Notes under the pieces: generated by a model | What the model was told of the DNA's origin: nothing | The model's database searches: none | Seen by the model: only the letters and a program-made list of their open reading frames with translations | Position numbers and translations under genes: made by a program | Shown here: positions 9,701-51,804 of the stretch, one piece after another | Numbering within the stretch: the stretch's first letter is position 1 | Layout: each line of letters begins with the position of its first letter | Source: Desulfovibrio sp. UIB00 | Lineage (GTDB): Bacteria; Desulfobacterota; Desulfovibrionia; Desulfovibrionales; Desulfovibrionaceae | Assembly: GCF_022508225.1 (NCBI RefSeq) | Contig: NZ_JAETXJ010000001.1 | Location: 248,001-312,000 of the forward strand | DNA: 64,000 nucleotides | Direction: 5' to 3'

Positions 9701-9707
9701 GGAACAT

Positions 9708-11690: not shown

Positions 11691-11735
11691 GGCGGGACAA
11701 TGGCGCAACATGATTCTGCGCTATTGTCCCGCCAA
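11691..11735. terminator. Bidirectional terminator
   Basis: Long stem GGCGGGACAATGGCGCA / TGCGCTATTGTCCCGCC with a nine-base loop, placed between the convergent L,D-transpeptidase and SMR genes, with A- and T-rich flanks on either side. Confidence 0.85.
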
Positions 11736-11762
11736 TTTTATCAGAGTTGCCGATGGCAGGAA

Positions 11763-12080: not shown

Positions 12081-12206
12081 ACAGCCTCCATGATGGTTGA
12101 TTTTTTAAAGCCGAACGCGACAAACAAAGGCATCTTGTGGTGCTTGTGCAAAAGGTTTTGTCTGCGCATGGCGCAAAAAAAGCGCCTACTGAGGCTCAAG
12201 GCGTTG

Positions 12207-13376: not shown

Positions 13377-13745
13377 GCCGTTCGTCACTTCACATCTGGA
13401 GTTTGACGCAATGGGCGCGCACGGGGGGCGGATCCCAAAAGGGGGCAATACGCGCGCGGCAGCTACCAGTAAAACAAAAATCTTGATCTATGTGCAACAA
13501 AATCAATTATCACTATCATTGTCAAGCTGCTCAAAAATAAGTGGATTATCGTGGTCCCGAACCCAACTTTTGCCGTCCCCCACGCACAGGGGTTTCCGTA
13601 GCAAAGATGCATAAGGCAGGGGGGCACAAGCCTTGCCTTTTGCAACGGGCAACAATCCATACTAACGCAATTGGTGGTAATATAAAAATTATTATGAAAT
13701 AATCATATGTCATATTTTTTGTGGATACTGAATGCTGGAGGAAAG
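13377..13745. other. Divergent promoter region
   Basis: About 370 bp between the minus-strand HD-GYP gene and the plus-strand lipoprotein gene. At 13501-13524 the minus strand reads ACAATGATAGTGATAATTGA, a loose match to the Fur-box repeat pattern. AT-rich sequence before 13746 probably carries the lipoprotein promoter. No gene seen. Confidence 0.45.
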
Positions 13746-14330
13746 ATGTTTCAAAAAGTCGTAATGCTGCTTCTGGCCTTGGTTGCGTTGACCGGGTGTG
13801 CTGCCCAAGTGCCGCCAGCTAAGCAGCTTCCGCCGCTGGAGAAGAATCAGAGTACGTATATTGCCGTGCCCAAGGATGTTCCTGATTTTGATGACAGACC
13901 CGGCGGCGGTATTGTTGATGCAAAGCGCTACCCCGGAACTGGCGAGGAAATTGTGGTTTTGCTCAGGGAAACCATTGCCCCCTATGCCGGAACAGTATCC
14001 ACAGGCAGCAGATATGAAACCGACGAGGAAGCCATCGAAAGCGGCAAAAAGGCAGGGGCCAGATATGTTCTCATTCCATTCTTTAACATCCAGATGCAGC
14101 GTAGAGTGCTGTGGGAACCACGTGTGTATAGGTTCTCGCTCATATTGCGCACATTTGACCTTCAGTCAGACAGCAAAGAGCCTGTCCGCAGTGTAGGGAT
14201 GCGGATATATCAAAAAAATACAATGCCGCCTGCGCAAACCCCAAAAGATATCGATGCATTGTTTAAAAGCATATTGCCTGGCTATGCAAAGACCGTTTAC
14301 GAAGCGGGCGAGCGTGCCGTTGAACAGTGA
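13746..14330 (+). CDS. Lipoprotein of unknown function
   Basis: 194 residues. The ATG at 13746 has a GGAGGAAAG site directly upstream, and the lipobox is ALTGC (Cys about 18). The mature part opens with an IAVPKDVPDFDDRPGGG block and carries GKKAGARYVLIPFFNI and RVYRFSLILRTFDLQ stretches, an alpha/beta pattern that recalls DUF4823-type lipoproteins (low certainty). It does not share the C-terminal cysteine motif of the other five small lipoproteins. Probably transcribed alone. Confidence 0.65.
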   Translation: MFQKVVMLLLALVALTGCAAQVPPAKQLPPLEKNQSTYIAVPKDVPDFDDRPGGGIVDAKRYPGTGEEIVVLLRETIAPYAGTVSTGSRYETDEEAIESGKKAGARYVLIPFFNIQMQRRVLWEPRVYRFSLILRTFDLQSDSKEPVRSVGMRIYQKNTMPPAQTPKDIDALFKSILPGYAKTVYEAGERAVEQ

Positions 14331-14693
14331 GCAGCGCGTACCGACGCACCAGCGCCTATAACACCCAAAGCCTTCGATTTTTCAATTCGGGGGCTTTTTG
14401 TATGTATGCAGGGGGGATGCAGTGCCGATGCAGCCTATGCGCCGGGCATTCTTTTGGACAACATGCCGCACGCATGCATCTACTTCGGGTTTCCAATTTC
14501 AGCCAAGAATCAATAGCATCACGCAATCCAGGCCTTGTTGATAAGCATTCCTGTATAAATTTGAAGTCGAATTTCCATTTGATAGATTAAAAAAATCAGA
14601 TTACGGTAATAAGTAATCACATTTCGCTTGCGAGGTGCTTGGTCTGCCTCGTGCAAACCTATATTCGCGGCAATGCTTTTGGCGGGAGATTTC
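14331..14693. other. Intergenic with weak terminator
   Basis: Contains an imperfect AAAGCCTTCGA / TTCGGGGGCTTTTT hairpin at about 14367-14400, probably ending the lipoprotein transcript. The remainder, to the HD-GYP start, shows no gene. Confidence 0.5.
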
Positions 14694-15872
14694 ATGAAGC
14701 CGATAAAGATATCCGTATCGCAGTTACGCCAGGGGATGTGGCTCGTAGAGCCCACAACATCCTGGATAAATGCTCCGTTTGTCTATGGCAAGAGTGGTGT
14801 CATCAAAAGCGCTGAACATATCAAACATATTATTGCATCTGGATATACGGAAGCCTACTACGATCCTGCCCGCTCCGAAGTTGTGCAATCTGGCCCCTGC
14901 CACAGCACCCCGAGGTGTAACGATGCAGGGCAAACGTCACTTGCCGAGGAGCTTTGCCGGGCGCGTGACCTGTACTTTGACGCCTGCAACTACATCAAAA
15001 ACCTGATGCAGGAAAAAAAGGTGGGCGCTATTGAAGTTGCGGAGCTAAAAGCCTTTGTAAACGAGATTATTCAAAGCCTGCACCGTAATTTCAACGCCCT
15101 GCTGCTTATCACAACCATCAAGAAAACCAGCGATTATACCTATCGGCACAGCATCAACGTCGCCATCTTTTCCATCGCCTTTGCCCAGTTTTTGGGGCTG
15201 GACGATGATGAAACCTTTGATACTGGCATGGCCGGGCTTTTTCACGACTACGGCAAGGCTTTTGTGCCACTGGAAATTCTGAATGCGCCGCGCAGCCTGA
15301 ACCCGGACGAAACCTCGGTTATCCGTTCGCACGTCAGGCTTGGCCACGACAACCTCAAGGATATCCCCTGGATTAACAGCATAATTCTTGACGGCATACT
15401 GCACCATCACGAACGGCACGATGGCTCAGGCTATCCGCACCAGCTCAGCGGCGAGGCCATCAGCCTGCACGGTGGCATTATTTCCATTTGCGATGTGTAT
15501 GACGCGCTGACATCTACGCGGGTGTACAAAAATGCAATCCCCCCTGCGCAGGCGGTAAAAAAGCTGTTCACCATGTCTGGGCAGGCGTGGGCGCCGGGTT
15601 TGGTAGAGCACTTTATCAAGCTGGTGGGCATATTTCCCGTAGGTACTGTTGTACAGCTCTCAAACGAAACAACGGGCATTGTATGTCAGCAGGATCACAA
15701 GTCGCCTCTCAAGCCCACGGTGCTTGTCATACTTAAAAAAGACAGACCCTACGCGCCATACTACCTCAAGCTTGCGCAGAATGATCAGGTCAGCATCAAC
15801 AGGGTGCTTGTGCCGTCAGAGCTTGCCAGCATCAAGAACAGCAAGTTTTACCGTATGTTTCTTGACCGGTAG
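14694..15872 (+). CDS. HD-GYP domain protein, paralogue of 12207-13376
   Basis: 392 residues from ATG 14694 (GCGGGAG upstream); the longer frame upstream lacks a ribosome site. The domain plan matches its neighbour: DUF3391-like N-terminus, then HD-GYP with GLFHDYGKAF and HHERHDGSGYPHQLSGE, and a GGIISICDVYDAL helix. It is predicted to degrade cyclic di-GMP. The last 55 residues (KKDRPYAPYYLKLAQNDQ, then VLVPSELASIKNSKFYRMF) are repeated as isolated remnants at 4633-4824 and 18039-18105. The gene, or a close relative, was therefore once next to the tRNA-Ala fragments. Confidence 0.87.
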   Translation: MKPIKISVSQLRQGMWLVEPTTSWINAPFVYGKSGVIKSAEHIKHIIASGYTEAYYDPARSEVVQSGPCHSTPRCNDAGQTSLAEELCRARDLYFDACNYIKNLMQEKKVGAIEVAELKAFVNEIIQSLHRNFNALLLITTIKKTSDYTYRHSINVAIFSIAFAQFLGLDDDETFDTGMAGLFHDYGKAFVPLEILNAPRSLNPDETSVIRSHVRLGHDNLKDIPWINSIILDGILHHHERHDGSGYPHQLSGEAISLHGGIISICDVYDALTSTRVYKNAIPPAQAVKKLFTMSGQAWAPGLVEHFIKLVGIFPVGTVVQLSNETTGIVCQQDHKSPLKPTVLVILKKDRPYAPYYLKLAQNDQVSINRVLVPSELASIKNSKFYRMFLDR

Positions 15873-37760: not shown

Positions 37761-38687
37761 TCAGTGCCTGCGTAGCAGATGGGGCAGGGCCGTTGCGCAG
37801 AAAATACCGCCCAGAATGGCAAGGGCGCTCACCAGCAGTCGTAGCCCCAGAGTTTCATCCATGAGCATGGCGCCACCCAGGGCGGTGATGAGTGGTACGC
37901 TCAACTGCACCACAGCTGCTGAGGGCACGCTGAGCCAGCGCAAAACCGCATACCAGAGAACGTAGCCAAGGGCGGATGCCAGCGCCCCGGCTGCCAGGGC
38001 GCACACAACGCCTGCCCACGGCCATGCGGCAGGCATTCCCGCCTGGTCAAAGGCCACAGCCCATGCCAGCAGTGCTACAGCTAGTGGAACGCAACGGATA
38101 AAATTGCCAGCCGTGGCCGCAGCGGCATTGTCGCCGCCCCTGCCATAGATCGTGTAGGCCGCCCAGCACAGGCCAGAGCAGAAAATGACCGTAGCCGCCC
38201 CTGCTGGCGGCGCATCAAGCCCCGGAAGCAGCAGATAGATTAGGCCTGCCATGGCAAGCCCAATGCCCAGGCTCTGGGCCTTGCCGGGATGTTGCCCCAG
38301 CCGCAGCCCGGCCACGAGCATGCCAGCCTGCACGGCCACGGCAATGACCAGAGCGCCCGCCCCGGCAGATAGCCGAACATAAGCCCAGGAAAAGCAGGCC
38401 ATATAGCCAAACAGCGCCAAGGCCGCACCCCAGCTGCCGGCACGCAGCGGGTTGCCGCCGCGCCGCATCTGGAGCAGCCAGAGCATGGCAGCGGCAGAAA
38501 TGGCCCTCAGGGCCGTATATGCAGAGGGATTCAGGGGATGAGCGTTTTGGCCTTCGGCAAGCGCAAAACGGCAGAGCAGGGAATTGGCGGCAAAAAGAAT
38601 CATGACCAAGGTCGTCAAGGCCGCCACCACCAAGGGGGAAGCATGCGTCTTGACTGTCGCGTTGCCAGCCCTGACGCCCACACGCAT
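37761..38687 (-). CDS. EamA/DMT-family exporter
   Basis: 308 residues, ten hydrophobic helices in two EamA repeats (ALRAISAAAMLWLL; GVVCALAAGALASALGYVLW). Inner-membrane metabolite exporter of the drug/metabolite superfamily. Its ATG overlaps the stop of the sigma-54 activator gene (TGATG), so the two are translationally coupled. This suggests the exporter belongs to the same physiological unit, possibly exporting an end product of isethionate metabolism. Substrate unknown. Confidence 0.82.
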   Translation of the reverse strand: MRVGVRAGNATVKTHASPLVVAALTTLVMILFAANSLLCRFALAEGQNAHPLNPSAYTALRAISAAAMLWLLQMRRGGNPLRAGSWGAALALFGYMACFSWAYVRLSAGAGALVIAVAVQAGMLVAGLRLGQHPGKAQSLGIGLAMAGLIYLLLPGLDAPPAGAATVIFCSGLCWAAYTIYGRGGDNAAAATAGNFIRCVPLAVALLAWAVAFDQAGMPAAWPWAGVVCALAAGALASALGYVLWYAVLRWLSVPSAAVVQLSVPLITALGGAMLMDETLGLRLLVSALAILGGIFCATALPHLLRRH

Positions 38688-40087
38688 CAGTCAATCCGCC
38701 GTGCGCCCTGCAACTTGCGGAACACAGTACTGCGGTTGATCTGGAACAGCTCCGCCACGCGCTGCACAGAGCCGTGCACTTCAATGGCCTTGAGCAGGAA
38801 ATCCCGCTCCATTTCGGCCATGATGTCGCGCAGGGGGCGGCGGGCGGCGAGGATGTCCTCGCTATAGCACGAGGCTTCGCGGGGTGCGCCGGATATCTGT
38901 GGCGGCAGGTCGCGAGGGGAAATCAGCGGCCCGCTGAGCGTGATGACCAGACTGTGCACAAGGTTTTGCAGCTCGCGCACGTTGCCGGGCCAGGAATAGG
39001 CCGTCATGATGTCGAGGGTCACGTCCATAAAGGCCATGGCCTTGTGGTATTTGGCAGTGTACTGGGCAAGGTAGTGTTCTGCCAGGGGGCGCACGTCTTC
39101 CTGCCTTTCGCGCAGTGGGGGGATGCGCACCGTGGCAACATTGAGGCGGTAGTACAGGTCGCGGCGGAAGGTCCCGGCCTCCACGCTTTCGGCCAGATCG
39201 CGGTTGGTGGCGGCAATGATGCGCACGTCCACCTTGCGCGGGCTGGAAGCGCCCACCCGCATGATTTCGCCGTCCTGGAGCACGCGCAAAAGCCGCGTCT
39301 GCATGGAAAGCGGCAACTCGCCCACTTCGTCCAGAAAGATCGTGCTGCCATCGGCAATTTCAAAATACCCGGCCTTGCCCTTGTTGGAAGCGCCAGTGAA
39401 CGCCCCCGGCATATAGCCGAACAGCTCCGATTCCGTGAGTGATTCTGAAATGCCGCCGCAGTCGACCTTGAGCAGGATTTTATCGTTACGGGCCGACTGG
39501 GAGTGGGTGTAGCGGGCAAATACGTCCTTACCTGCGCCGGTTTCGCCCAAAATAAGCACGGTCGCGTCCGTGTCCGCAAAGCGGCGGAGCAGGGAAACCA
39601 CATCGCCCATGGCCCGGCTGGCATACACAGGTTCGCGTGATTTTGCCGCGCCCTGTGCAATGTAGGCCAACTGGTCGTTGATCTGGTCAATAAGCTTGCA
39701 CTGCCCGGCCACCTGATCCTGTAATTGCGCCAGCAGTGTGACATCGCGCGCAAACGTGACCACAAGACACAGGTCTCCCTTGGCGTCAAAAACGGGAAAG
39801 CCCGTGAGCACGAGCTTTTTGCCGTTTTTGAGTTGCTGCACATGGGTGGTGGGCCTGCCCGTGCGCACTATTTCCGGGTTCAGAATGCAGTCAAACGTGC
39901 CTTCCTGTACCAGATCGCGCACATTTTTGCCGCGTATCTGTTCCTGGGTCAGCCCGGTCAGCTGTTCGTACATGCGGTTAACCTGCAGGCTGGTGCCAGC
40001 GGCATCACTTATAAAGACGCCTTCGGGCAGGGCATCGAGGATGCGCTCCACATGTTTGGATAGAAGCTCGGAAGATCTGCATGCCAT
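38687..40087 (-). CDS. PAS-domain sigma-54-dependent activator, likely regulator of isl genes
   Basis: 466 residues. PAS domain at about 10-130 (RILDALPEGVFISDAAG, QLTGLTQEQIRGKN), AAA+ domain with Walker A GETGAGKD near residue 182, the sigma-54-contacting GAFTGA loop near 230, the FLDEVGELP Walker B, and a Fis-type helix-turn-helix at the end (RVAELFQINRSTVFRKL). There is no receiver domain, so a small molecule or redox state sensed by PAS probably triggers it. It lies directly downstream of islB, and three palindromes plus two -24/-12 promoters occur in the islA upstream region. This makes it the natural activator of the isethionate genes. Confidence 0.88.
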   Translation of the reverse strand: MACRSSELLSKHVERILDALPEGVFISDAAGTSLQVNRMYEQLTGLTQEQIRGKNVRDLVQEGTFDCILNPEIVRTGRPTTHVQQLKNGKKLVLTGFPVFDAKGDLCLVVTFARDVTLLAQLQDQVAGQCKLIDQINDQLAYIAQGAAKSREPVYASRAMGDVVSLLRRFADTDATVLILGETGAGKDVFARYTHSQSARNDKILLKVDCGGISESLTESELFGYMPGAFTGASNKGKAGYFEIADGSTIFLDEVGELPLSMQTRLLRVLQDGEIMRVGASSPRKVDVRIIAATNRDLAESVEAGTFRRDLYYRLNVATVRIPPLRERQEDVRPLAEHYLAQYTAKYHKAMAFMDVTLDIMTAYSWPGNVRELQNLVHSLVITLSGPLISPRDLPPQISGAPREASCYSEDILAARRPLRDIMAEMERDFLLKAIEVHGSVQRVAELFQINRSTVFRKLQGARRID

Positions 40088-40117: not shown

Positions 40118-41059
40118 TCAGTGCGGTACGCGGAGCCGATCGCCCAGGATGGCCTGCGCCACAGCCTGAAGCCTGTTCATGTGTTCTGTTTCCAGCTTTA
40201 CATCACCCATGGGCACGGGTCTGTCGAGAAACTGGTATTTCTGCGTGCCAAGGCGATGGTAGGGCAGCATTTCGTATTCCACCCGCTCAAAAGGCTTGAG
40301 GAATCCGGCAATGGCGGCAATGGCCTCTTCGCTGTCGTTAAAGCCGGGGATAACCGGCGTGCGTGCCAGTATTGGCAGATCAGAAAATTCTTCTGCCAGA
40401 ATGCGGAAGTTTTCGAGGATATGCCTGTTGGACAGGCCTGTCTGCGCTTCATGCACTGCGCTGTCCATATGTTTGATGTCGAACAGCACGTAATTGAGGT
40501 ATGGCGCGGCCTCGCGGATGGTCTCTGGCGAAACCATGCCGCAGGTTTCAACGGCGGTCTTGATGCGCCGGGTGCGCGCCTCGCGCAGCAGGGCCACGGC
40601 AAATTCACCCTGCAACAGGGGTTCGCCGCCCGAAAGGGTCAGGCCTCCGCCAGAACGGGCGTAGAAGGCCATGTCCTGCTCAACCACTTGCAGCACATCA
40701 TCCACTGTACGCTTTTTGCCATAAACCAGCAAACCCTGGGCGGGGCATGCCGCAGCGCAGGGCATATGGCATTCGGTGCAGTGGCTGCGGTTTATGTTTA
40801 GCTTGTCGTCTTCGCCAAGCGTTATGGAACCATGCGGACAGGCCACAATGCAGTGCCCGCACTTGGAAACCCCCAGGCAGCGGCCAGCGTTAAAGGCCAG
40901 TTCCGGTTCGCGTTGCTGTGATTCGGGGTTGCTGCACCAGCGGCAGGAAAGACTACAGCCCTTGAGAAAAACGATGGTTCTTATGCCGGGGCCGTCATGA
41001 ACCGAATATTTCTGGACGTTAAAAACCATGCCTTGCCGTTGGCTGTCATCCTGACACAT
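40118..41059 (-). CDS. islB: Isethionate sulfite-lyase activating enzyme (radical SAM)
   Basis: 313 residues. The radical-SAM triad is in KGCSLSCRWCSNPE (CxxxCxxC). Two ferredoxin-type clusters follow (CGHCIVACPHG, CTECHMPCAAACPAQG), as in the longer glycyl-radical activases. GGGLTLSGGEPLLQ and the C-terminal RVEYEMLPYHRLG are typical. It generates the glycyl radical on IslA using SAM and an electron. AAGGATGG precedes ATG 41059; a second methionine ten codons in is possible. A terminator-like hairpin separates it from islA, so its expression is probably lower. Confidence 0.92.
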   Translation of the reverse strand: MCQDDSQRQGMVFNVQKYSVHDGPGIRTIVFLKGCSLSCRWCSNPESQQREPELAFNAGRCLGVSKCGHCIVACPHGSITLGEDDKLNINRSHCTECHMPCAAACPAQGLLVYGKKRTVDDVLQVVEQDMAFYARSGGGLTLSGGEPLLQGEFAVALLREARTRRIKTAVETCGMVSPETIREAAPYLNYVLFDIKHMDSAVHEAQTGLSNRHILENFRILAEEFSDLPILARTPVIPGFNDSEEAIAAIAGFLKPFERVEYEMLPYHRLGTQKYQFLDRPVPMGDVKLETEHMNRLQAVAQAILGDRLRVPH

Positions 41060-41124: not shown

Positions 41125-43620
41125 TTACATCGCGTCGTGTTCGGTACGGGCAATCAGGTCGTTTTGCAGGTCGGGCGACAGATCAACAAAGTAGGCGCTG
41201 TACCCGGCAATGCGCACGATGAGGTTGCGGTACTTCTGCGGGTCTTTCTGCGCGGCCACCAGGGTCTGCTTGTTTACCACGTTGAACTGCACATGCCAGA
41301 GCTTGAGGTCGCAGAAGGTGCGGATAAAGGACACCAGCTTTTCCGTGCCCTGTTCGCCTTCCACGCACTTGGGCGTGAACTTGATGTTCAGCATGCGGGC
41401 GGCGCGGTCGCGCATGCCCATGTTCTTGGTCTGGTAGTTGGAGAGCAGCACGGCGGTGGGGCCGTTGACGTCCGCACCGTGCGAGGCCGAGGAGCCGTCG
41501 GAAAGCGGGAAGCCGTCGGTACGGCCATTGGGCGTGGCGGAAACCACCTTGCCGAAGGGCACATGCGAGGTAAAGGGCACATAGCGCACATCGTTGTGGA
41601 TGCCCAGTTCCTTCATGGAGTACTTGCCGCCGTATTCCACGGAGATCCTGTCGATCTCGCGTCCAATGGCATCGGCATATTCATCGTTGTTGCCGTAGCA
41701 GGGGGCGGAACGCAGCAGGGCGCGCACGTCGTCGTAGCCTTCAAAGTTGGCGTCAATGGCGGCCAGCAGCTTGTCCATGGTCAGCTTCTTTTCTTCAAAC
41801 ACAAGCTTTTTCACGGCGGCGAGGGAGTCCACAACAGTGCCAAGCCCCATGTATTCAAAGTAGCCCAGGTTGATGCCTTCAGGAATCTGTTCCTGATGCA
41901 GGTCAATGCAGTGCTTCATGCACAGGTCGTGCATGGCCGAGCCCATGGGTTGGGCAAAGTGCTGGGCGCGCAGTTTGTTGATGATGTACTGCTGGGTAAA
42001 GGCCGTTTTAAGGAACAGCAGGTGCTGCTGCACATAGGCGTTCCAGAACTCGTCCCAGGTCTTGAAGTTGCGGGGATCGCCGGTTTCCACGCCCAGCAGC
42101 TGGTCGCCAAACTTCTTCATGCGGCCATTGCGCAGCACCATTTCCACGGCAGCGGCAAAGTTGATGTACGCGCCGCCGGAGGTATAGGTGTCGCGGTTGG
42201 GCATGCGGGCTTCGGTGCAGCCGGAAACCGCGTAGTCCAGGGCTTCTTCAAAGGTTGCGCCCTTGGAAACATAGAGGGGCACGATTTCTTCGTCGTTGAT
42301 AAGCTTGGGGAAGCCCGAGCCGTACTTGATGGTTTCAGCTACGTCCCAAAGGTAGCGCTCGGGTGCGCGGGAGTGGATGCGGGCCGCGAGGTCGGGATAG
42401 TGCAGCGGGAATTCGCGCTTGGACTTGAGGATCAGGTAGGTCAACGCGTTGCTGGCGTCGCGTCCGTCGGTGGTCTGGCCGCCAACTGTCACGGCTTCCC
42501 AGTGGGCATAACCTTCGTTGAAAGCGCCGCCGGTGGGCGAAATGTACATGTCGATGAATTCGGCCATGCCCACCCACATGCATTCCAGCAATTCCATGGC
42601 CTGGGCATCGTTGAGCTTACCCTCGGCGCGGTCTTTGGCGTAGAAGGGGAAGAAGTACTGGTCCATGCGGCCATTAGAAATGGTGGTGCCGGTCTTCTGC
42701 TCGATGCGCGAGAACATCTGGGTGAACCACTGGCTCTGGCAGGCTTCCCAGAAGTCGCGGGCGGGTTCGCCGGGCACGTGGTCGGCATTGTCGGCCATGC
42801 GCAGCAGTTCGGCCTTGCGGGTGGGGTCGGTTTCCTTAGCTGCCATTTCGCGGGCGAGCACGGCGTGGCGCTTGGCCCACAGCACGATGGCATCGCACAC
42901 GATGACAACGGCTTCAAGGAAGGGCCGCTTTTCGCAGGCGTCCTTGCAGCTCAGGGGATCAAGGGCGTCCAGCTTGTCCTGGGCTTCTTTCTTGATGCTG
43001 TTGAAACCGCGTTTCAGGATCTTTTCAAAATCGTGCACCCACTGGATGGACGAGCGGAAGGACGAGGTTTCATTGACGATGAAGCGCGAGATGAGCCCCA
43101 TGGGGTCATCATAGGTCAGCTTGTGCACTTCGGCGGGCAGAGCGGCGTTGAGGGCTTCATGGTAGGTCTTGCCCTTCCAGTACGGCGCAATTTCTTCAAT
43201 AACGCGTTTGGCGTCTTCAGGCGTGATAGTGGCGGGCGAGGTTTTGCGGGTGGGCAGATCGCGCACGGCGATATCCAGAAAGTCGCCGTCCAGTTCGGGG
43301 TACAGGATGCCGTAACGGCCATCGCAACCGGCGCGGCCAAGCAGCAGCTGGTCTTCCTGCACATAGACAGTCATGTTTTTCGCAATGTGCATGAGGGCCT
43401 TGGCCCAACGCAGCACCAGGGGCTGACCGTCTGTTTCCTGCATGGACTGGGTGAAGTACAGGGCGCGTTCGATGTCGATGCGCGGCTTCTGGCCTTCAAA
43501 GCGTTCCAGCAGCTTGAAAACGCGGGTGTGGGTTGTGCGGAATTTGTCTTCCCGGCCCTCGATCTTGTCGTACAAACGCTGTTCCTGGGGGGAGCGGCAT
43601 TCGCAAGTGGTGGTGCTCAT
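41125..43620 (-). CDS. islA: Isethionate sulfite-lyase, glycyl-radical enzyme
   Basis: 831 residues; it cleaves isethionate to sulfite and acetaldehyde. The ATG at 43620 has AGGAG seven bases upstream; the 27 codons before it are non-coding. Counting from this start, the residues I recall from the Bilophila wadsworthia enzyme fall at R189, Q193 (FRSSIQ), W374, C468 and E470 (SGCTEAR). After a one-residue shift they are R679, F683 (VRYVPF) and the radical glycine G806 (RIAGYSAYF). This full set separates it from choline, propanediol, hydroxyproline and pyruvate-formate lyases. First gene of a minus-strand unit islA-islB-activator-exporter. A -24/-12 promoter lies about 100 bp upstream. Confidence 0.95.
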
Positions 43621-43722
43621 CACGATACTCCTGAAATATGAATATGTGGCGCGCGGGACAATGGCAGCCGCCGCGCGGAGAACGCCGAAAGGTTGTGGCA
43701 ATCCTCGTTTGTTTCTCCCTGT

Positions 43723-43737
43723 GCATGCGGCATGCCA
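43723..43737 (-). promoter_or_regulatory. Sigma-54 (-24/-12) promoter of islA
   Basis: The minus strand reads TGGCATGCCGCATGC, matching TGGCACG-N4-TTGC with exact spacing and two mismatches. It lies 103 bp before the islA start codon. Confidence 0.8.
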
Positions 43738-43821
43738 TAATATTTAACTATTTGAAGTTTTTAAATATTTAAAAATTTTTTTCCCGACAACATTTGCGAG
43801 TGCGGTTTTTAACAAGCCATA

Positions 43822-43835
43822 GTCGCAAATTTGCA
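43822..43835. promoter_or_regulatory. Activator site 1 (palindrome)
   Basis: GTCGCAAATTTGCA, built on the perfect palindrome GCAAATTTGC (43825-43834), about 95 bp upstream of the islA -24/-12 element and exactly the reverse complement of site 3. Confidence 0.7.
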
Positions 43836-43871
43836 CCAGTCAGGAGGGCTTGGCGTTAATAAGGGCATTTA

Positions 43872-43891
43872 TTGCGACGCAAACTTGCGAC
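43872..43891. promoter_or_regulatory. Activator site 2 (palindrome)
   Basis: TTGCGACGCAAACTTGCGAC contains GCAAACTTGC (43879-43888), one base from the perfect palindrome, flanked by GAC on both sides. Its centre is 54 bp from that of site 1. Confidence 0.68.
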
Positions 43892-43999
43892 ACAGCCTTT
43901 TGGAAGAACTATCCAGCTAGGGGTAACGTGACAAAAAGCAACATGATTTTATTTTCACAAGCGCCCTTTTCAGCCTGCGGGAGAACGATTCCTGCTTGA

Positions 44000-44013
44000 T
44001 GCAAATTTGCGAC
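44000..44013. promoter_or_regulatory. Activator site 3 (palindrome)
   Basis: TGCAAATTTGCGAC, perfect palindrome GCAAATTTGC at 44001-44010, about 105 bp upstream of the divergent plus-strand sigma-54 promoter. Confidence 0.7.
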
Positions 44014-44115
44014 GCGGCTTTAAAACATACTAAAAAAATATGATGTAAATAAAAATATTATACTGATTTAATTGAATATTATGTGAGAAATTGCTGAAAG
44101 TCAGGCTTTGTGATC

Positions 44116-44130
44116 TGGCACACATCGTGC
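44116..44130 (+). promoter_or_regulatory. Sigma-54 (-24/-12) promoter of amidohydrolase operon
   Basis: TGGCACACATCGTGC followed by A: exact TGGCAC, correct spacing and GTGCA at the -12 element. It lies about 200 bp before the start at 44328, leaving a leader of about 185 nt. Confidence 0.78.
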
Positions 44131-44327
44131 AAAACGAAAAATATCACAAGCCGCGTGGGTTGGAGGCGACCTGAACGGCTTAGAAATAGCAACGCCTGGA
44201 GAAGAGAGATGGGAAACCTTTTTGTTTCCTGCGCGGGCAGCCTGATAGGGCAACCCGCGTGGATCTGGCAGACGCACTTGCCGCCAGCGCCGCATAACCC
44301 CCCAAGCGGGTTCAGGAGAACCGCATT

Positions 44328-45161
44328 ATGAACGTTATTGACTTTCGCTTTCGCCCAAACACGCCAGAAATCATTAACGGCATCAAGAACAGCGCCATGT
44401 TCAAGGCGGCCTGCAAAGCCATTGGCTTTGACGCCCGCAAGCCCCAGCCTCTTGACGAGATTGTGGCTGATCTGAACAATCTTGGTGTGGAGCTTGGGGT
44501 CATAACCGGTCGTGACTGCGAAACCACTTACGGATTTCCGGCCAACAACAACAGCGTGCTGGAGTTTTGCCGGGCTTATCCCGACAAGTTTGTGGGGTTC
44601 TGGGGCATTGATCCGCACAAAAAAATGGACGCGGTGCGCGAAATCGAGCGCGTGGTTGCCGATTACGGCATGAAGGGTATTGCCATTGACCCTTACCTTG
44701 CGCACATACCCGCTTCCGAGGCCAGGTTTTATCCGCTGTACACCAAGTGCTGCGAGCTGAATATTCCGGTGTTCATCACCATGGCTCCGCCGCCGCAGGT
44801 GCCGGGGGCCATTCTGGAATACGCAGACCCCCGCGATGTGGACAAGGTTGCCAGAGATTTTCCCGAGCTGACGCTCATCATGAGCCACGGCGGATACCCC
44901 TTTGTAAACGAGGCCATCTACACCTGCCTGCGCAACGCCAATGTGTACATGGATATTTCGGAATACGAGCGCGCGCCCATGGTTGACGTGTACGTGCGCG
45001 CCATGAACGACCTCATCCCTGACAAGGTGCTTTTTGCCAGTGCCCATCCCTTTGTGGAACTGGCTGATGCTCTTGAAGCCTACAAGCACTTTGATCTTAC
45101 TGAAGAAGCCCGCCGCAAGGTCATGTATGAAAACGCCCGCCGCGTGCTGGGCCTGTCATAA
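44328..45161 (+). CDS. Amidohydrolase-2 (ACMSD-like) family metal-dependent hydrolase
   Basis: 277 residues, TIM-barrel amidohydrolase of the decarboxylase/hydrolase type-2 group. The N-terminal metal motif reads DFRFRP instead of DxHxH, an unusual change. Later residues are kept: MSHGGYPFVNEAI (His near 185), DISEYE, and the C-terminal FASAHPFV (His) with the closing NARRVLGL. AGGAG lies nine bases before ATG 44328. It is first gene of the sigma-54-controlled unit divergent from islA, 11 bp before the symporter. Whether it acts on a carboxylate related to isethionate is unknown. Confidence 0.78.
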   Translation: MNVIDFRFRPNTPEIINGIKNSAMFKAACKAIGFDARKPQPLDEIVADLNNLGVELGVITGRDCETTYGFPANNNSVLEFCRAYPDKFVGFWGIDPHKKMDAVREIERVVADYGMKGIAIDPYLAHIPASEARFYPLYTKCCELNIPVFITMAPPPQVPGAILEYADPRDVDKVARDFPELTLIMSHGGYPFVNEAIYTCLRNANVYMDISEYERAPMVDVYVRAMNDLIPDKVLFASAHPFVELADALEAYKHFDLTEEARRKVMYENARRVLGLS

Positions 45162-45172: not shown

Positions 45173-46549
45173 ATGAGCAACGCTGTTGATAAAGCAACTG
45201 CCCAGGCAAACCTGCGCCGCGTAGTTATTTCTTCCCTGATGGGCGCGGTGATCGAATGGTATGACTTTTTCCTCTACGGCGTAGTCGCCGGGCTTGTGTT
45301 CAACAAACTGTTTTTCCCGTCCTTTTCGTCGGGCGTCGGTACCATCCTGGCGTTTGCGACCTTTGCCGTGGGCTTTGTTGCCCGCCCCCTTGGCGGTTTC
45401 ATCTTCGGGCATTTTGGCGACAAGATCGGCCGCAAGAAAATGCTCATTCTCACCCTTGAAATCATGGGCGTGGCCACAGTGCTTATTGGCTGCATTCCAT
45501 CCTATGACAGCATCGGCATCTGGGCGCCCATTCTGCTGGTCACCTGCCGTATTGCCCAGGGCATTGGCCTTGGCGGCGAGTGGGGCGGTGCGGTGCTTAT
45601 GGCCTTTGAATCGGCCCCTGCCCACAAGCGTGCATTTTACGGCAGCCTGCCCCAGGTGGGTCTTTCCCTTGGTCTCATGCTGGCATCCGGCGTGATCGGC
45701 CTGCTTTCCTGGCTGTTGCCCGACGAAGCCTTTATCGCCTGGGGCTGGCGCGTGGCCTTTGTGCTGAGCGCCGTGCTGGTGCTTGTTGGCGCGTATATCC
45801 GTACCTCCGTGCAGGAAACTCAGGACTTCTCCAGTGCCAAAAAGCATGTGGAAAAAATCCGCTACCCCATGATTGACGCCTTCAAGCGTTACCCCAAGAC
45901 CCTGATGGCCTGCGTGGGCGCGCGTTTTGTGGAAGGTATCGCCTTCAACGTGTTTGGCGTATTCTCCCTGACCTACCTTACAAATACCTGCGGCGTGAAC
46001 CGTACCGTGGCCCTCATGGCCGTGGTGGTGGCATCCGCTGTCATGGCCTGCTTTATCCCCATGTGGGGCGCCATGGCCGACCGCATCGGCAAAGGCCGTA
46101 TTTTCGGCACTGCCGCACTGCTGTTGGGCATCACCTCCTTCCCCGTGTTCTGGGTGCTGCACAACTACGCCACCACCAACCTGTTCTTTGTGTACCTTGC
46201 CATCATCGTTCCCTTCGGTATCGTCTACGCCGCAGCATATGCCAGCATGGCGAGCCTGTTCTCGGACAGTTTCGATGCTACAGTGCGCTATTCGAGTATT
46301 TCCTTCGTGTATCAGTTCTCGGGCATCTTCGCCTCGGGTCTGACGCCCATGATCGCCACAATGCTGGTACAGGCCAATGGCTCGCAGCCCTGGTATCTGT
46401 GCGGCTATCTGCTTGCGGCCGGTCTTATCAGCACCATATCCACCATATGGCTGGGAACCATCCGTGAACGTAACGATCTGTACCACACTGTGCCTGCCAG
46501 CAGCGTGGAAGAAGCCTCTGAATCTGCCGTGACCGACGCGGCGGTGTAA
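45173..46549 (+). CDS. MFS transporter, metabolite:H+ symporter (MHS) family
   Basis: 458 residues, 12 helices. MHS signatures: GAVIEWYDFFLYG in helix 1, the loop GHFGDKIGRKKMLI, RIAQGIGLGGEWGGAVLMAFE, and PVFWVLHN. Relatives take up proline/betaine, shikimate, citrate or other acids with protons. AAGGAG precedes ATG 45173. Co-transcribed with the amidohydrolase and, by its position in the isl regulon, a candidate isethionate importer. No TRAP transporter, the usual partner in many sulfate reducers, is seen in this window. Confidence 0.85.
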   Translation: MSNAVDKATAQANLRRVVISSLMGAVIEWYDFFLYGVVAGLVFNKLFFPSFSSGVGTILAFATFAVGFVARPLGGFIFGHFGDKIGRKKMLILTLEIMGVATVLIGCIPSYDSIGIWAPILLVTCRIAQGIGLGGEWGGAVLMAFESAPAHKRAFYGSLPQVGLSLGLMLASGVIGLLSWLLPDEAFIAWGWRVAFVLSAVLVLVGAYIRTSVQETQDFSSAKKHVEKIRYPMIDAFKRYPKTLMACVGARFVEGIAFNVFGVFSLTYLTNTCGVNRTVALMAVVVASAVMACFIPMWGAMADRIGKGRIFGTAALLLGITSFPVFWVLHNYATTNLFFVYLAIIVPFGIVYAAAYASMASLFSDSFDATVRYSSISFVYQFSGIFASGLTPMIATMLVQANGSQPWYLCGYLLAAGLISTISTIWLGTIRERNDLYHTVPASSVEEASESAVTDAAV

Positions 46550-46577: not shown

Positions 46578-46611
46578 GCGTGACGGGGTCATATGCCGGA
46601 CCCCGTCACGC
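46578..46611. terminator. Perfect hairpin between symporter and TSUP genes
   Basis: GCGTGACGGGGTC / GACCCCGTCACGC, 13 bp perfect stem with an eight-base loop, 29 bp after the symporter stop. No clear T-run, so it may be a weak terminator or an mRNA-stabilising structure. Confidence 0.6.
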
Positions 46612-46797
46612 TCGCAGCTTGCGCCTCCCGGCCCAGAACGGCAGGGCGGCGCTTTTGCAGCGGACAGGCCGGACGGAATTTGCAGCCAACGTTTAGCCAG
46701 TCACTCTGCCGAAATGTTGCCGACATTGCGGGCGTGCGCCGGGCTAACCCTCGGCCCGGCGCACTGCCCATGCCTGCAGCAATCCAAAGGAGCCTTT

Positions 46798-47544
46798 ATG
46801 CTTGTGGCGCTTGCGGTTTCGTCATTTCTGGTGGGCGCGCTTATTGGCGCAACAGGGGTGGGCGGCGTGCTGCTGATCCCAGCCATCATGTTTTTCGGCG
46901 GGCTTGGCACGCATGAGGCCATGGCAACGGCACTGTTCAGCTTTCTGTTTGCGGGCATTGTGGCAACGGTGAGCTATCAGCGCTACGGCACCATTGACTG
47001 GCGGGTTACCCTGCCAGTGGTGGCGGGCAGTTTTTTGTCGGGTTATGCGGGGGCGTATGTGGGGGCGTATGTTCCGGCGCGCGGACTCAACATTCTGCTG
47101 GCCTGTCTGATAATCTTTTCCAGCCTGTATTCCATGCTTCCTGCGCGCAAGGGCACGGGTATGGCACAGCGGCTCAGCCCAAGGGGCAATACGGCGCTGC
47201 TCTTTGGTATTGGCATTTTTACGGGTTTTTTGTGCGGCATGACGGGGGCTGGCGGGGGCATCATTTCCGTGCCGGTCATGCTGCTGTTCAGCTACGCGCC
47301 CTTGCAGTGCATTGCCACAAGCCAGGTTTTGCAGATGGTAATTTCTGTTTCCGGCTCTGCAAGCAACATGAGCAACGGCTTCATTTCCTATTCCACGGTC
47401 TGGTGGGTCACGGCCTGCGAGCTTGTGGGCATAGCCGTGGGGGCGCACATTGCCCACCGTGTGCCAGTGAGCCTGCTCAAGCGCATGGTCAGCGGGCTTT
47501 GCATGGCCATAGGACTGTTTATCGCATGGCGGGCGCTGGGTTAG
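46798..47544 (+). CDS. TSUP (TauE/SafE) family transporter, candidate sulfite/sulfonate carrier
   Basis: 248 residues with about eight helices and both TSUP motifs (VGALIGATGVGGVLLIPAI; GFLCGMTGAGGGIISVPVM). AAAGGAG is directly before ATG 46798; the longer upstream frame is non-coding. The family exports sulfite or moves sulfonates. Next to islA, which releases sulfite, and after the MHS symporter, it probably handles excess sulfite or isethionate itself. A hairpin after the symporter gene leaves open whether it is in the same transcript. Confidence 0.82.
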   Translation: MLVALAVSSFLVGALIGATGVGGVLLIPAIMFFGGLGTHEAMATALFSFLFAGIVATVSYQRYGTIDWRVTLPVVAGSFLSGYAGAYVGAYVPARGLNILLACLIIFSSLYSMLPARKGTGMAQRLSPRGNTALLFGIGIFTGFLCGMTGAGGGIISVPVMLLFSYAPLQCIATSQVLQMVISVSGSASNMSNGFISYSTVWWVTACELVGIAVGAHIAHRVPVSLLKRMVSGLCMAIGLFIAWRALG

Positions 47545-47568: not shown

Positions 47569-48246
47569 TCAGCCTTTCCAGTGATATCTGGTCACGGGCC
47601 TGCCGTGACCGCCGTAGTCTTTTTCACTGCCCAGGCGGTCTGCCGCCGCAAGGTAGTCGAAATATTTTTTCAGCGATATGCGCGAAATGCCCGTCAGCGG
47701 CTCAATATCCTTGAGGCTGAACGGGCCGGAACAGCCTTGCAGCACCTGTATGATGTTTTGCAGGGTGGTGGCGTCTATGCCCTTTGGAGTATCTGCCGGA
47801 GGCTGGCCAGATTTTTTAATAAAGATGCGCTTGTCCAGGATTTCTTGTGTGATGGGCACCTCGGGCGATGTGAGCAGCTGGCGCTTTTCACGCAGTTGCT
47901 CAAGGGCGGTGCGAAACCTCTCGACCGTGAAGGGTTTGACGATATAATCTGCAACGCCCATGCGCAGGGCATTGAGAATGTCGTCGCTGTTCTGCGCGGC
48001 GGTTATCATGATGACGTCTGTATTGAAAAAACTGGTCTTGATGATGCGCAGCAGTTCCATACCGGTCATGCCGGGCATGAACATGTCGAGCAGCACCAGA
48101 TCAATCTCTCCGGCGCGCAGCAGTTCCAGCGCGGTCTCGCCGGAGCTGGCCCTGCCTTCAAGGCAAAAGCCCTCTATTCCCTCAAGATACATTGCCGCCA
48201 AATCTGCCACCATGGGGTCGTCTTCAACGATGAGCACGCGGATCAT
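47569..48246 (-). CDS. CitB/DcuR-type response regulator
   Basis: 225 residues. Receiver domain (1-120) with EDD acidic pocket, phosphoacceptor D in LVLLDMFMPGMTG (about residue 54), T in MITA and K in VKPF. The C-terminal helix-turn-helix of the CitB/DcuR type includes LTGISRISLKKYFDYL. Its start overlaps the kinase stop by 4 bp, so the pair is coupled. In relatives it controls uptake or use of di/tricarboxylates. Confidence 0.88.
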   Translation of the reverse strand: MIRVLIVEDDPMVADLAAMYLEGIEGFCLEGRASSGETALELLRAGEIDLVLLDMFMPGMTGMELLRIIKTSFFNTDVIMITAAQNSDDILNALRMGVADYIVKPFTVERFRTALEQLREKRQLLTSPEVPITQEILDKRIFIKKSGQPPADTPKGIDATTLQNIIQVLQGCSGPFSLKDIEPLTGISRISLKKYFDYLAAADRLGSEKDYGGHGRPVTRYHWKG

Positions 48247-49877
48247 TCCTGTTCTCCTTGCGCCAGCGCAGCCACAGGAACACGCACGGTAAAGACCGTG
48301 CCGTGCCCCGGTTTTGCGTCGATTTCCACAGAACCGTCCATTTCTTCCAGCGTAAGCAGCAGCATGTAAAGCCCGATGCCCCTGTTTGACCCCTTGGTGG
48401 AAAAGCCCTTGGTGAAGATTTTTTCCAGGTGTTCATCGGAAATGCCGCGTCCGGTGTCGGACACGCTGATAACAAGTTCGTCAGACCCGCCCGCCTGGGT
48501 CGGGATATTTTCGATATTCAGGGTGATCCTTTTTTCTACAGCGTAGATGGTGGCTTCAAAGGCATTGTCAATGAGGTTGCCCACCACCGTGACCAAGGCG
48601 TGCGAACCCTTGGGCGAAAGCGGGGGGATAACGCCGCGTCCCTCAATCACAAGTGTTACGCCCATTTCATGAGCGCGGCTGTACTTGCTCTCCAGAAAGC
48701 CCGCAACAATGGGATCCTTGACCAAGGCGGCAATGGCGGAGGTTTCCAGTTTTTTGCTGCCGATGATCTGCTCAAGGTAGGCATCAAGTTCCGCGTGGCG
48801 GCCATTGCGCAACAGGCCGGAAATGACGTGCAGCTTGTTGAGGTATTCGTGCGAGCGCGAGCGCAGCGCCTCAACATAATTGCTGAGGCCAGTGAGGCGT
48901 TCGGCCTGGGCGCGCACGTCCGTCATGTCGCGAAAGGTCGCCACCGCGCCGATTATTTCCCCCTGCACCAAGATTGGCACACGGTTGGTCAGCACCACGC
49001 AGCGGTTGATATTCTGCTCTTGGTCATATTCCGGCCTGCCCTCCCTGACCACGGCATCAAGACGGGTGCCGGGGATGGCACTCTGCACGGGCTGGCCCTC
49101 CAACGGGCCGAAGACGCCCGCCGAACGCAGGATTTTTTCGGCCATTTCGTTAACAAGTACCAGGGTGCCGTCCCTGTTAACGGCTATAATGCCCTCGCGG
49201 GTGGTGCGCAGTATGGCGTTGCGTTCTTCAAGCAGCCGCGCGATCTGGTGCGGTTCCAGCCCGAAAAGAATTTTTTTTATGGTGCGCGAAAGCAGCACTG
49301 CCAGCACGATGCCAATAACCAGCGAGAGGGCCAGCAGCCAGCCCAGAGGCCCGGTCAGGCGCGCCACGCCCGCTTCGATATCACTGGACAAAATTCCTGC
49401 GGAAGCCGCGCCCAGCTGATTGCCCTGCGCGTCAAAAATGGGCCGGAACGCCCGTAGCGAAAATCCGAATGTGCCTCGCGCCGATGAAAGGTAGGACAGC
49501 CCTTCAAGGGCCTTGCCTTCATCGCCGCCCACGAAGTGCTGACCGATTTTTGCTGAGTCGGGGTGAAAAAGACGGATACCCTGCATATCTATCAGCACGA
49601 TAAATTTCACGTCCGAGGCGCGGGTGAGCGTTTCAAGAAAGGCGGTCATCTGCCTGTACGCCTCGGGCTGGCGGGTGCGCATGGCCTCCACCACCAGCGG
49701 CGATTCCGCCGCAAGTTGCGCCACGCTCGAGACGGTGTTTTCCGCATCCTCATATCCGTACTTGCTGATAAAATAGGAGCCAGCCATGTGCCCGAGCAAC
49801 ATGGGCGGGCAGAGCGCAAGGCTGACCATGACCACAAGCTTGACGAACAGGCTGGAATTTCTGATGGCGTGCAGCAT
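48243..49877 (-). CDS. CitA/DcuS-type sensor histidine kinase
   Basis: 544 residues. Helix 1 at about 12-34, a periplasmic sensor of about 140 residues, helix 2 at about 178-200, a PAS domain (220-330), then the kinase with SRSHEYLNKLHVISGLL (phosphoacceptor His) and ATPase boxes NLIDNAFEA, SDTGRGIS and GSNRGIGLYML. The layout is that of CitA/DcuS sensors of extracellular carboxylates. It faces a porin gene, so the pair may control uptake of an organic acid. Divergent from the porin by about 400 bp. Confidence 0.88.
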   Translation of the reverse strand: MLHAIRNSSLFVKLVVMVSLALCPPMLLGHMAGSYFISKYGYEDAENTVSSVAQLAAESPLVVEAMRTRQPEAYRQMTAFLETLTRASDVKFIVLIDMQGIRLFHPDSAKIGQHFVGGDEGKALEGLSYLSSARGTFGFSLRAFRPIFDAQGNQLGAASAGILSSDIEAGVARLTGPLGWLLALSLVIGIVLAVLLSRTIKKILFGLEPHQIARLLEERNAILRTTREGIIAVNRDGTLVLVNEMAEKILRSAGVFGPLEGQPVQSAIPGTRLDAVVREGRPEYDQEQNINRCVVLTNRVPILVQGEIIGAVATFRDMTDVRAQAERLTGLSNYVEALRSRSHEYLNKLHVISGLLRNGRHAELDAYLEQIIGSKKLETSAIAALVKDPIVAGFLESKYSRAHEMGVTLVIEGRGVIPPLSPKGSHALVTVVGNLIDNAFEATIYAVEKRITLNIENIPTQAGGSDELVISVSDTGRGISDEHLEKIFTKGFSTKGSNRGIGLYMLLLTLEEMDGSVEIDAKPGHGTVFTVRVPVAALAQGEQE

Positions 49878-50289
49878 GGCAAACCGATGGGGGCGGTCAT
49901 GCTGGCGGGCAGACCGGATTGTGGCGGCGGCCCGTGGCTGGGCTCCGCCTGTGAGTGTGCGGCACAGTTGCGGCAGGCGTGGGCTTGCCAGCCATGAGCT
50001 ACCATATCAGGTGCGTTGTGGGGCCGCAAATGGCGGCAAGTGCGCAGAAATGGGTGTTTCCACCAGGTTTTGAGGTGCTGCCGCAGATAGCAATATTTTG
50101 CAAAATATCCCCAGAAACCCCACGGGCCTAGCACGCCAAGCCCACACGTTCCACGGCTTGGTAAAAAATAGTGTGGAAAAATATCACCTGCGGAGTTAGG
50201 AATGGCGACCCCCCTATGTGTGCAGATTTTGGAATGCTGTTGATTTGGTCATTGACTTACTGAACCAGGAAACGAAGATGGAGCCGGGG
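49878..50289. other. Divergent upstream region of sensor kinase and porin genes
   Basis: About 410 bp. No ORF, riboswitch or sigma-54 element is clear. The ATG at 50278, 12 bases before the chosen porin start and in frame, is an alternative start. Confidence 0.45.
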
Positions 50290-51804
50290 ATGAAAAAAAT
50301 TGCAGTGTTACTTTTGGTAGCCGGGATGTTGTGCGCAGTGCCCGGGGGAGCAAGCGCCATTGATTTTTCGGCCAAGGGCCGCTGGGCTTATAATTTCAGC
50401 TACGGCCAGCACGGCAATTTTACCGAGGGCGGGAACAAAACGGGCTACAGCACAGGTGAAGACGAATTTGAAGCCGCCCAGCAGGTTCGCCTGCAACTGG
50501 ACGCCAAGGCTTCAGAGAATCTTTCCGGCACCGTGCATTTTGAACTGGGTGGCTACAACCGGGGCATGATGCAGTACTGGGGCGCCAGCAACAGCGGCGG
50601 TTCGCTGGGCGCGGACGGCAACTGGGTCAAGGTCAAGAATGCCTTTCTTGACTGGACTGTGCCGCAGACTGCCCTCAAGGTGCGCATGGGTATTCAGCCC
50701 ATGCAGTTGCCCGACTACATCAACAACAGCCAGGTGCTGGCCGATGACGCGGCGGGCATCACCGCCTCCTACGCCGTTAACGAAAACGTGGGCGTCACGG
50801 CCTTCTGGGCGCGCCTCTTCAACGACAACACCACTGACGCAACCAACCGCAACCCCGGCTACATGGACAACATGGATGCCGTAGGCCTGACCCTGCCCCT
50901 GACGTTTGACGGCGTAAGCCTCACGCCCTGGGGCATGTATATGGGCATTGGCCCGGCCATCAACTACAACAACGTCAAAAATGAGCAGATCACCAGCTAC
51001 GCGAGCGTAGCCTCTGCCGGTGGCCCCAAGGCTGGCCTGCTGCCCCTGTATGGCGGCTTTCACAAACGCAAGCTCAGCGAATACGGCAATGCCATGTGGG
51101 TGGGCCTGCCCGGTCAGGTGACATTGTTCGATCCATTCCGCGTGTCGTGGGATGTTGTTTACGGCTCCGTGCAGTATGACGATGCCGCCATGAACCGTGC
51201 TGGCTGGCTGGCCTCCCTGCTGCTCGAATACAAGCTGGACTGGAGTACCCCTGGCCTCTACGGCTGGTATACTTCAGGCGACGATGACAATCCGGGCAAC
51301 GGCTCCGAGCGCATGCCCAACATCCACCCCAACAACCCCAACGATTTTTCGGAATTCGCCTTCCACGGCGACCCCATTGTGGGCCGCGACAGCATTGTGG
51401 GCAAATCCATGACCGGCACCTGGGGCATTGGCGCGCGGCTCAAGAATATGAGCTTTATCGACAACCTCAGCCACACCTTCCGCATCAATTATATGGGCGG
51501 CACCAACGACCCGGCGCTCCTGAAAAAAATCAGAAACGCCACCGGAAGCTGGATGGCCCCCAACGACGGCACTGTTCCCGGGCGCGAGGGCTTGTATCTG
51601 ACCCGCAACGACACCCTTGTGGAATTTGGCCTGAGCACCAAGTACAAGATGTACGACAACTTCACCATCTATGTGGAAACCAACTATGACGCGCTCTTCC
51701 TTGACAAGAGCGCCTCTGTGTGGGGCAACAGCAAGATGAACGGCAAGAGCGACCGTAGCGCCGATGCCTGGAACACCGCCGTGACCTTTGTGTATCAGTT
51801 CTAG
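50290..51804 (+). CDS. Outer-membrane porin, Desulfovibrio type
   Basis: 504 residues. Start chosen at ATG 50290 (GGAG six bases upstream), giving a clean signal peptide MKKIAVLLLVAGMLCAV with cleavage after GGASA. The mature protein alternates polar and aromatic residues in many beta strands and ends with the aromatic VYQF typical of outer-membrane barrels. Sequence style (FSAKGRWAYNFSYGQ..., VRMGIQPMQLPDY) is that of the abundant homotrimeric porins of Desulfovibrio. It is divergent from a CitA/DcuS-type kinase. Confidence 0.85.
   Translation: MKKIAVLLLVAGMLCAVPGGASAIDFSAKGRWAYNFSYGQHGNFTEGGNKTGYSTGEDEFEAAQQVRLQLDAKASENLSGTVHFELGGYNRGMMQYWGASNSGGSLGADGNWVKVKNAFLDWTVPQTALKVRMGIQPMQLPDYINNSQVLADDAAGITASYAVNENVGVTAFWARLFNDNTTDATNRNPGYMDNMDAVGLTLPLTFDGVSLTPWGMYMGIGPAINYNNVKNEQITSYASVASAGGPKAGLLPLYGGFHKRKLSEYGNAMWVGLPGQVTLFDPFRVSWDVVYGSVQYDDAAMNRAGWLASLLLEYKLDWSTPGLYGWYTSGDDDNPGNGSERMPNIHPNNPNDFSEFAFHGDPIVGRDSIVGKSMTGTWGIGARLKNMSFIDNLSHTFRINYMGGTNDPALLKKIRNATGSWMAPNDGTVPGREGLYLTRNDTLVEFGLSTKYKMYDNFTIYVETNYDALFLDKSASVWGNSKMNGKSDRSADAWNTAVTFVYQF

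Follow-up and report, generated by a model that had tools for sequence, protein, structure and literature searches.

A conserved divergent control region with sigma-54-type promoters and predicted IslR operators beside islA in Desulfovibrio sp. UIB00

In the window, the whole 64-kb stretch of DNA analysed here, the gap between islA (start 43620, minus strand) and an amidohydrolase gene (start 44328, plus strand) contains a pair of sigma-54-type promoters that face outward, together with three near-palindromes. Judged from sequence, this control region is real and well conserved in relatives. We consider it quite probable that the gap acts as a divergent sigma-54-dependent enhancer-promoter module, in which the activator IslR binds the palindromes as operators and loops to both promoters. 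IslR, a one-component activator, would occupy the three copies of an 18-bp palindrome in dimeric form. Operators 1 and 2 would serve islA-islB-islR-eamA, and operator 3 would serve mainly the amidohydrolase-MFS unit. On sensing isethionate or a close metabolite the IslR ATPase ring would assemble, the DNA between operator and promoter would loop, and sigma-54 polymerase would open both promoters; because islR sits in its own target operon, such a circuit would amplify itself. IslR binding, dimer formation, looping, the effector, the start sites and autoregulation are parts of this model that we infer.

Promoters, operators and genes of the control region

The preliminary description of this DNA claimed a pair of divergent sigma-54 promoters, and inspection of the sequence located both. 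The promoter of islA-islB-islR-eamA lies on the minus strand at 43722..43737 (TGGCATGCCGCATGCA, read as TGGCAT-GCCGC-ATGCA), and that of the amidohydrolase-MFS unit on the plus strand at 44116..44131 (TGGCACACATCGTGCA, TGGCAC-ACATC-GTGCA). The six bases said to separate the boxes are five in both cases (TGGCAT/ATGC and TGGCAC/GTGC), but the exact -24/-12 spacing was correctly described: GG-N10-GC, the canonical sigma-54 promoter distance, is kept in both. The pattern TGGCAY-N5-NTGCW has 52 matches on the two strands of the whole 3.46 Mb genome, against 12 for reversed control patterns; 24 of them carry TTGC, nine ATGC, and 19 CTGC or GTGC. Two of the 52 point outward from the islA/amidohydrolase gap.

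The three palindromes were also present as claimed, with GCAAATTTGC at 43825 and 44001 and a one-mismatch copy at 43879. Extended to 18 bp, where the consensus is TGTYGCAAATTTGCRACA, they are predicted operators 1 (43821..43838, AGTCGCAAATTTGCACCA, score 23.0, closest to the islA promoter), 2 (43875..43892, CGACGCAAACTTGCGACA, score 18.1, 54 bp from operator 1) and 3 (43997..44014, TGATGCAAATTTGCGACG, score 23.6, closest to the divergent promoter). When up to two mismatches are allowed, TCGCAAATTTGCGA occurs at 17 places in the genome (control, 4), three of which fall in this gap within 190 bp. The linker between operator 1 and the islA promoter (43738..43820, 83 bp) is 75% A+T. Across 43 regions from the best 80 of 102 loci, linkers between operator and promoter average 64% A+T, compared with 51% in the leader. 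The IHF consensus has no match in the window's linker (43738..43820) and was found in five of 43 such linkers, where 0.5 were expected; an IHF site was rejected as a conserved feature.

On the minus strand the gene order is islA (41125..43620), islB (40118..41059), islR (38687..40087) and an EamA-family permease gene (37761..38687) that overlaps the end of islR, which bears out the statement that the activator gene is the third of the islA unit. islA encodes an 831-aa GRE of the isethionate sulfite-lyase type, for which the start at 43620 was taken and not the TTG at 43701, and islB encodes a GRE activase. IslR is a PAS-AAA+-HTH sigma-54 activator of 466 aa, with a PAS domain at about residues 23-115 in the structure model, a linker helix at 117-146, an AAA+ domain carrying GAFTGA, and a Fis-type HTH; among solved folds it comes closest to sigma-54 activators, with 1ojl at the top. 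Close orthologues hardly vary where the HTH ends, with RST(I/V)FRK there, and the window has RSTVFRK. Variants with RTTIFRK were seen in L055, L103 and L088, and in L022 the contig ends inside the HTH. A search of the plasmid collection for islR gave no match at E 1e-100.

The divergent unit begins with a gene of the Amidohydro_2 family (44328..45161, plus strand), followed by an MFS metabolite/H+ symporter gene of 2A0106 type, below the NCBIfam cut-off (45173..46549, plus strand). Metal-dependent amidohydrolases have an HxH motif of metal ligands where the first strand ends. The window's protein belongs to PF04909 but lacks HxH at that place, where RxR stands instead (DFRFRP), and DFRFRP is invariant in all 28 aligned amidohydrolase sequences, the hpsG-linked one included. 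Its structure model is confident (pLDDT 92.7). The best match in both sequence and fold is BB4693 (3irs/3k4w), an uncharacterised TIM-barrel protein of Bordetella bronchiseptica, which shares the DFRxRP start but is only 27% identical in the fold alignment.

A TauE/SafE-family permease gene (46714..47544, plus strand) lies 164 bp past the MFS gene and is separated from it by a strong hairpin at 46578-46611 that has a perfect 13-bp GC-rich stem and no T-run. Whether this gene belongs to the regulon is uncertain; in L010 it is the amidohydrolase gene that a TauE gene of 95% identity follows. A two-component pair (sCache_3 kinase and response regulator, 47569-49877) is convergent with the TauE gene. 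Between the divergent promoter and the amidohydrolase gene, a 40-codon leader frame (44209-44331) has a Shine-Dalgarno-like start and a stop that overlaps the amidohydrolase ATG; a comparable leader frame of different sequence precedes the amidohydrolase gene in L062.

Relatives vary in how this unit is placed and in what it imports. The amidohydrolase gene takes three positions around islA: of 44 loci, only 26 have it upstream in divergent orientation, while 12 carry it downstream and six upstream, in both cases on the islA strand. The importers behind the divergent promoter are MFS in the window, DctP with a fused DctQM in L010, and DctP in L020, and L023 has an NMT1-type binding protein with ABC genes. 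This variety of importers, together with an amidohydrolase that lacks HxH, may be new.

Conservation and spacing among islA relatives

To ask how general the arrangement is, the best 80 of 102 islA-like loci were kept. Seventy-five of these passed the requirements on match length and on upstream sequence, 300 bp or more (L047, L055, L071, L078 and L086 were dropped), giving 76 upstream regions with the window. Operators were scanned with a symmetric weight matrix trained with the window left out, and each locus's own strings were left out when it was scored. The 76 regions contain 173 operator sites with a score of at least 9, against 9.85 in first-order resampled sequence, an enrichment that is somewhat flattered, since one set of regions served both to train the weights and to be scanned. 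Of the 76 regions, 58 have a promoter with a score of 6 or more out of 7 no further than 400 bp from islA, where 1.3 would be expected. Since the loci are related, these counts of operators and promoters are not independent events. Absence of the palindrome near islA in relatives had been named as an observation that would overturn the reading, which thus survives. Divergent counterpart promoters were seen for some relatives among the matches listed.

The split by activator identity indicates that the motif tracks close orthologues of IslR. Where IslR is at least 57% identical over its full length, an operator scoring at least 12 is present in 28 of 29 regions, the window included; at least two operators are present in 27, at least three in 24, and a promoter in all 29. 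The exception, L037, has an IslR of 61% identity and a promoter, and no operator over the threshold. Regions whose activator is 41-54% identical have an operator in eight of 16 cases and a promoter (score 6) in seven of 16. An operator was found in two of three regions with a partial activator match and in 23 of 28 with no activator match in the examined flank; all of these counts refer to the best 80 of 102 loci. Seven further stretches from relatives all have at least two palindromes (score at least 13) and a promoter before islA; they stand outside the counts because at least three of them (L141, L143, L145) duplicate the records of named loci.

Spacing was analysed in the 43 regions, again from the best 80 of 102 loci, in which islA is at least 80% identical; 39 of them contain at least two operators. 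In 29 of these 39 the pair closest to islA is spaced 51-54 bp, and in five 41-43 bp; the remaining five spacings are 22, 49, 89, 142 and 175. The start of the nearest operator is 98-102 bp from the promoter in 25 of 38 regions, 79 bp in four and 124-128 bp in five, with the other four at 89, 91, 113 and 237. In the 13 other loci with exactly 54 bp between operators, the sequence separating them is just 17-58% identical to that of the window, so that the spacing outlasts the sequence. The two spacing classes differ by about one helical turn, which suggests that the dimers would sit on one face of the DNA. A vector-length statistic computed for periods of 9-13 did not favour 10.5, and because it did not single out 10.5 bp it is the two spacing classes that we claim, with phasing as the interpretation put on them. 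The explicit layout of three operators with conserved spacing may be new.

Among loci in which islA is at least 80% identical, 40 of 42 promoters start the -12 box with A, G or C, and among more distant islA promoters 15 of 18 start it with T (best 80 of 102 loci). Unlike the close islA promoters, the genome as a whole most commonly uses TTGC as its -12 form. The -12 box beginning with A, G or C in close islA promoters is possibly a new detail.

Effector, paralogous locus and enzyme identity

An effector of IslR other than isethionate itself, either a product or a related sulfonate (sulfite, acetaldehyde, sulfoacetaldehyde or DHPS), is a lesser though real possibility. PAS domains bind varied ligands, and the IslR sequence points to no particular one. 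In Bilophila wadsworthia, according to the available part of the report, the islAB cluster is inducible by taurine as well as by isethionate, though taurine is there converted to isethionate (PMC8667426). Against this possibility stands the isethionate-dependent GRE production in D. desulfuricans DSM642 and D. alaskensis G20 described in the accessible text of Peck 2019, where GRE and activase are abundant on isethionate and not in control cells (PMC6386719).

The same genome carries a second sulfonate locus, L119 (C14:30000-49999). Positions 7267-15575 of this piece encode an HpsG-type GRE, an activase, an Amidohydro_2 gene, an MFS protein of 2A0106 type and an IslR-like EBP, the hpsG-linked paralogue here named HpsR. 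Palindromes TGTTGCAAAAATGCAACA and TGTTGTAAATTTGCAACA lie at 11511 and 15558, and a sigma-54-type promoter for the GRE at 15466. The locus is thus similar to the isl locus in gene content, GRE promoter and class of palindrome. It differs in the type of GRE, in the TGTTGYA..TGCAACA form of its palindromes, and in having one palindrome within the cluster, about 290 bp ahead of the amidohydrolase gene, where no nearby promoter reaches score 6. Such a second locus with a paralogous activator and similar palindromes may be new.

The resemblance extends to relatives. An hpsG of at least 75% identity occurs in seven other genomes, from which six upstream regions were taken; all six have a promoter and five have a palindrome scoring 12.7-16.6, and four of five downstream stretches in these clusters have a palindrome scoring at least 12. 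HpsR ends its HTH in RSTIFRK, as do many orthologues of IslR, and differs there from the window's IslR in one residue. It is accordingly conceivable, though in our view unlikely, that both IslR and HpsR read the palindromes of the window and that the region is one node of a shared sulfonate network and not a switch for isethionate alone. Several observations run counter to this: the hpsG palindromes of relatives score lower than those of islA, and two of the five have one and the same sequence; position 4 of the half-site is T in 11 of 12 half-sites (the six best hpsG-type sites) but C in 32% of islA operators; and HpsR and IslR are just 45% identical overall. The claim of a specific isethionate operator consequently stands in part. 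The palindromes have the look of operators for the linked sigma-54 activator, and their specificity for isethionate control is in doubt because the hpsG-type locus has nearly the same HTH end in its activator and the same class of palindrome.

Further sites were sought across the genome, where GNYGCADNNHTGCRNC matches 36 places and a looser pattern 59. Seven places outside the isl and hps loci were inspected from the GNYGCADNNHTGCRNC and TCGCAAATTTGCGA matches. Four (L120, L121, L123, L127) were rejected as IslR targets since they lie inside open frames of at least 100 codons, and L122 since it falls between two converging long frames. In L126 (C4:105000-111500, 3021-3047) the palindrome shares bases with the -12 box of a sigma-54-like site, and the frame behind that site is porin-like by eye and resembles the one at window positions 50218-51804; neither frame has a Pfam match. 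In L125 (C6:184000-190500, 3286-3324), tandem palindromes of hpsG type, with starts 21 bp apart, precede a chemoreceptor gene (MCPsignal, with dCache_1 just above the cut-off), and the only sigma-54-like site nearby is weak. Of the seven, L125 alone looks regulatory, and it is of the hpsG type.

A broader proposal, which we regard as doubtful, is that IslR and HpsR are a duplicated pair with one operator grammar for isethionate and DHPS respiration, and that the RxR amidohydrolase is a metal-free ligand binder. If true, the grammar would consist of tandem dimers five or four helical turns apart with the promoter about 100 bp further on, and would take in the gene for a Cache-type chemoreceptor; the RxR amidohydrolase, present in both loci, would bind sulfite, a sulfonate or a sulfite-carbonyl adduct arising from the two sulfo-lyases.

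Of the solved structures, the window GRE matches 7kq3 (1529.5 bits) and 5ymr (1486.9 bits), both IslA entries, better than 6lon (1222.6 bits), which we take to be HpsG and whose own entry is labelled as PFL2/glycerol dehydratase family. The GRE paralogue on C14 shows the reverse, with 1595.9 bits for 6lon and 1214.6 and 1168.6 bits for the IslA entries. The window protein retains the B. wadsworthia IslA residues Arg189, Gln193, Trp374, Cys468-x-Glu470, Arg678, Phe682 and Gly805, the numbering being verified for Arg189, Gln193, Cys468, Arg678 and Phe682 and the others taken from the alignment. Arg189, Gln193, Trp374 and Arg678 are not decisive because the HpsG-type paralogue has all four; Phe682 alone of the listed residues separates the two proteins, being Ile in 6lon and in the paralogue. 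The roles of these residues, and the identity of 5ymr as D. vulgaris IslA, are given in the accessible part of PMC8473560.

That the GRE is instead HpsG, a DHPS sulfo-lyase, and the regulon one for DHPS, is very improbable. In its favour, the NCBIfam model NF048011, (2S)-3-sulfopropanediol dehydratase of HpsG type, gives the window GRE 1540 bits, over its cut-off of 1000. However, the HpsG-type paralogue itself scores lower on this model (1505.3), so NF048011 does not separate IslA from HpsG. We reject an HpsG identity on the structure bits, the comparison with the paralogue, and Phe682: the protein is closer to IslA than to HpsG and has no Ile at that position. The NCBIfam label is misleading for the window's IslA-type protein, and a curated model that names such a protein HpsG could mislead surveys of sulfonate use. 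The preliminary assignment to islA is right as to closeness to the IslA structures and Phe682, with sulfite release as the predicted activity.

Finally, neither short pattern is above chance in the 64-kb window alone (promoter pattern, 2 found against 1.95 expected; core palindrome with one mismatch, 6 against 8.83), but a chance origin of the palindromes and promoters is contradicted by their conservation, geometry and genome-wide rarity, and we reject it as practically negligible.

Relation to published systems and significance

The regulon was already predicted in outline in 2015, under an older name for its enzyme. Kazakov 2015 predicted EBP sites and sigma-54 promoters for a GRE operon and a neighbouring amidohydrolase gene, the DVU2827 regulon of Desulfovibrionales, in which a one-component EBP is likewise linked to a GRE and an activase (PMC4641369). 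The part of that paper available to us reads the regulon as pyruvate metabolism (pyruvate formate-lyase) with C4-dicarboxylate transport, and describes the amidohydrolase gene of D. desulfuricans and D. piger as co-transcribed with an MFS transporter gene. The preliminary description offered the amidohydrolase and the symporter as additions to the regulon. Both do stand behind the second promoter, but they are not new members, having been placed there, the MFS gene for D. desulfuricans and D. piger, in the same part of that paper (PMC4641369). The window has the features of a DVU2827/IslR-type regulon: a one-component EBP (sensor, AAA+, Fis-type HTH) encoded with GRE and activase, what appear to be conserved EBP sites upstream of the promoters, and predicted sigma-54-type promoters before both the GRE unit and the amidohydrolase unit. 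There are differences as well, again as far as the accessible text goes, since DVU2827 is listed with GAFSGA where the window's IslR has GAFTGA, and D. vulgaris has genes of a C4-dicarboxylate-type transporter in place of the window's MFS gene (PMC4641369). The palindrome GCAAATTTGC is absent from the main text of PMC4641369, which gives its motif by way of a figure or an additional file.

The enzymology was reported separately. In the portions accessible, Xing 2019 identifies D. vulgaris Q727N1 as an isethionate sulfo-lyase and points to an MFS gene as the neighbour of IseG in D. piger DSM 749 (PMC6453916); strain and neighbourhood suggest that Q727N1 is DVU2824. An islR knockout of D. alaskensis G20 does not grow on isethionate (PMC6386719, available text). 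The islR/islAB cluster of these two reports resembles that of the window in its IslA-IslB pair, in a predicted regulator needed on isethionate and in the MFS gene by IseG; the sections seen of PMC6386719 and PMC6453916 describe no operators or promoters, and the word amidohydrolase is absent from their main texts. The islAB cluster of B. wadsworthia has a PAS-domain regulator adjoining islB-islA and a predicted amidohydrolase, and differs in carrying genes for a microcompartment and for an acetaldehyde dehydrogenase; the part available mentions neither an operator nor a sigma-54 promoter (PMC8667426). Taken together, these papers yield most of the preliminary conclusion, and within the open-licence literature we found none that joins the 2015 regulon with isethionate enzymology.

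Isethionate respiration leads to hydrogen sulfide in the gut. Connecting isethionate sulfite-lyase with the 'pyruvate formate-lyase' regulon of 2015 provides a concrete, testable switch for this process, and suggests how differing importers, MFS in the window and TRAP or ABC in some relatives, may share one control.
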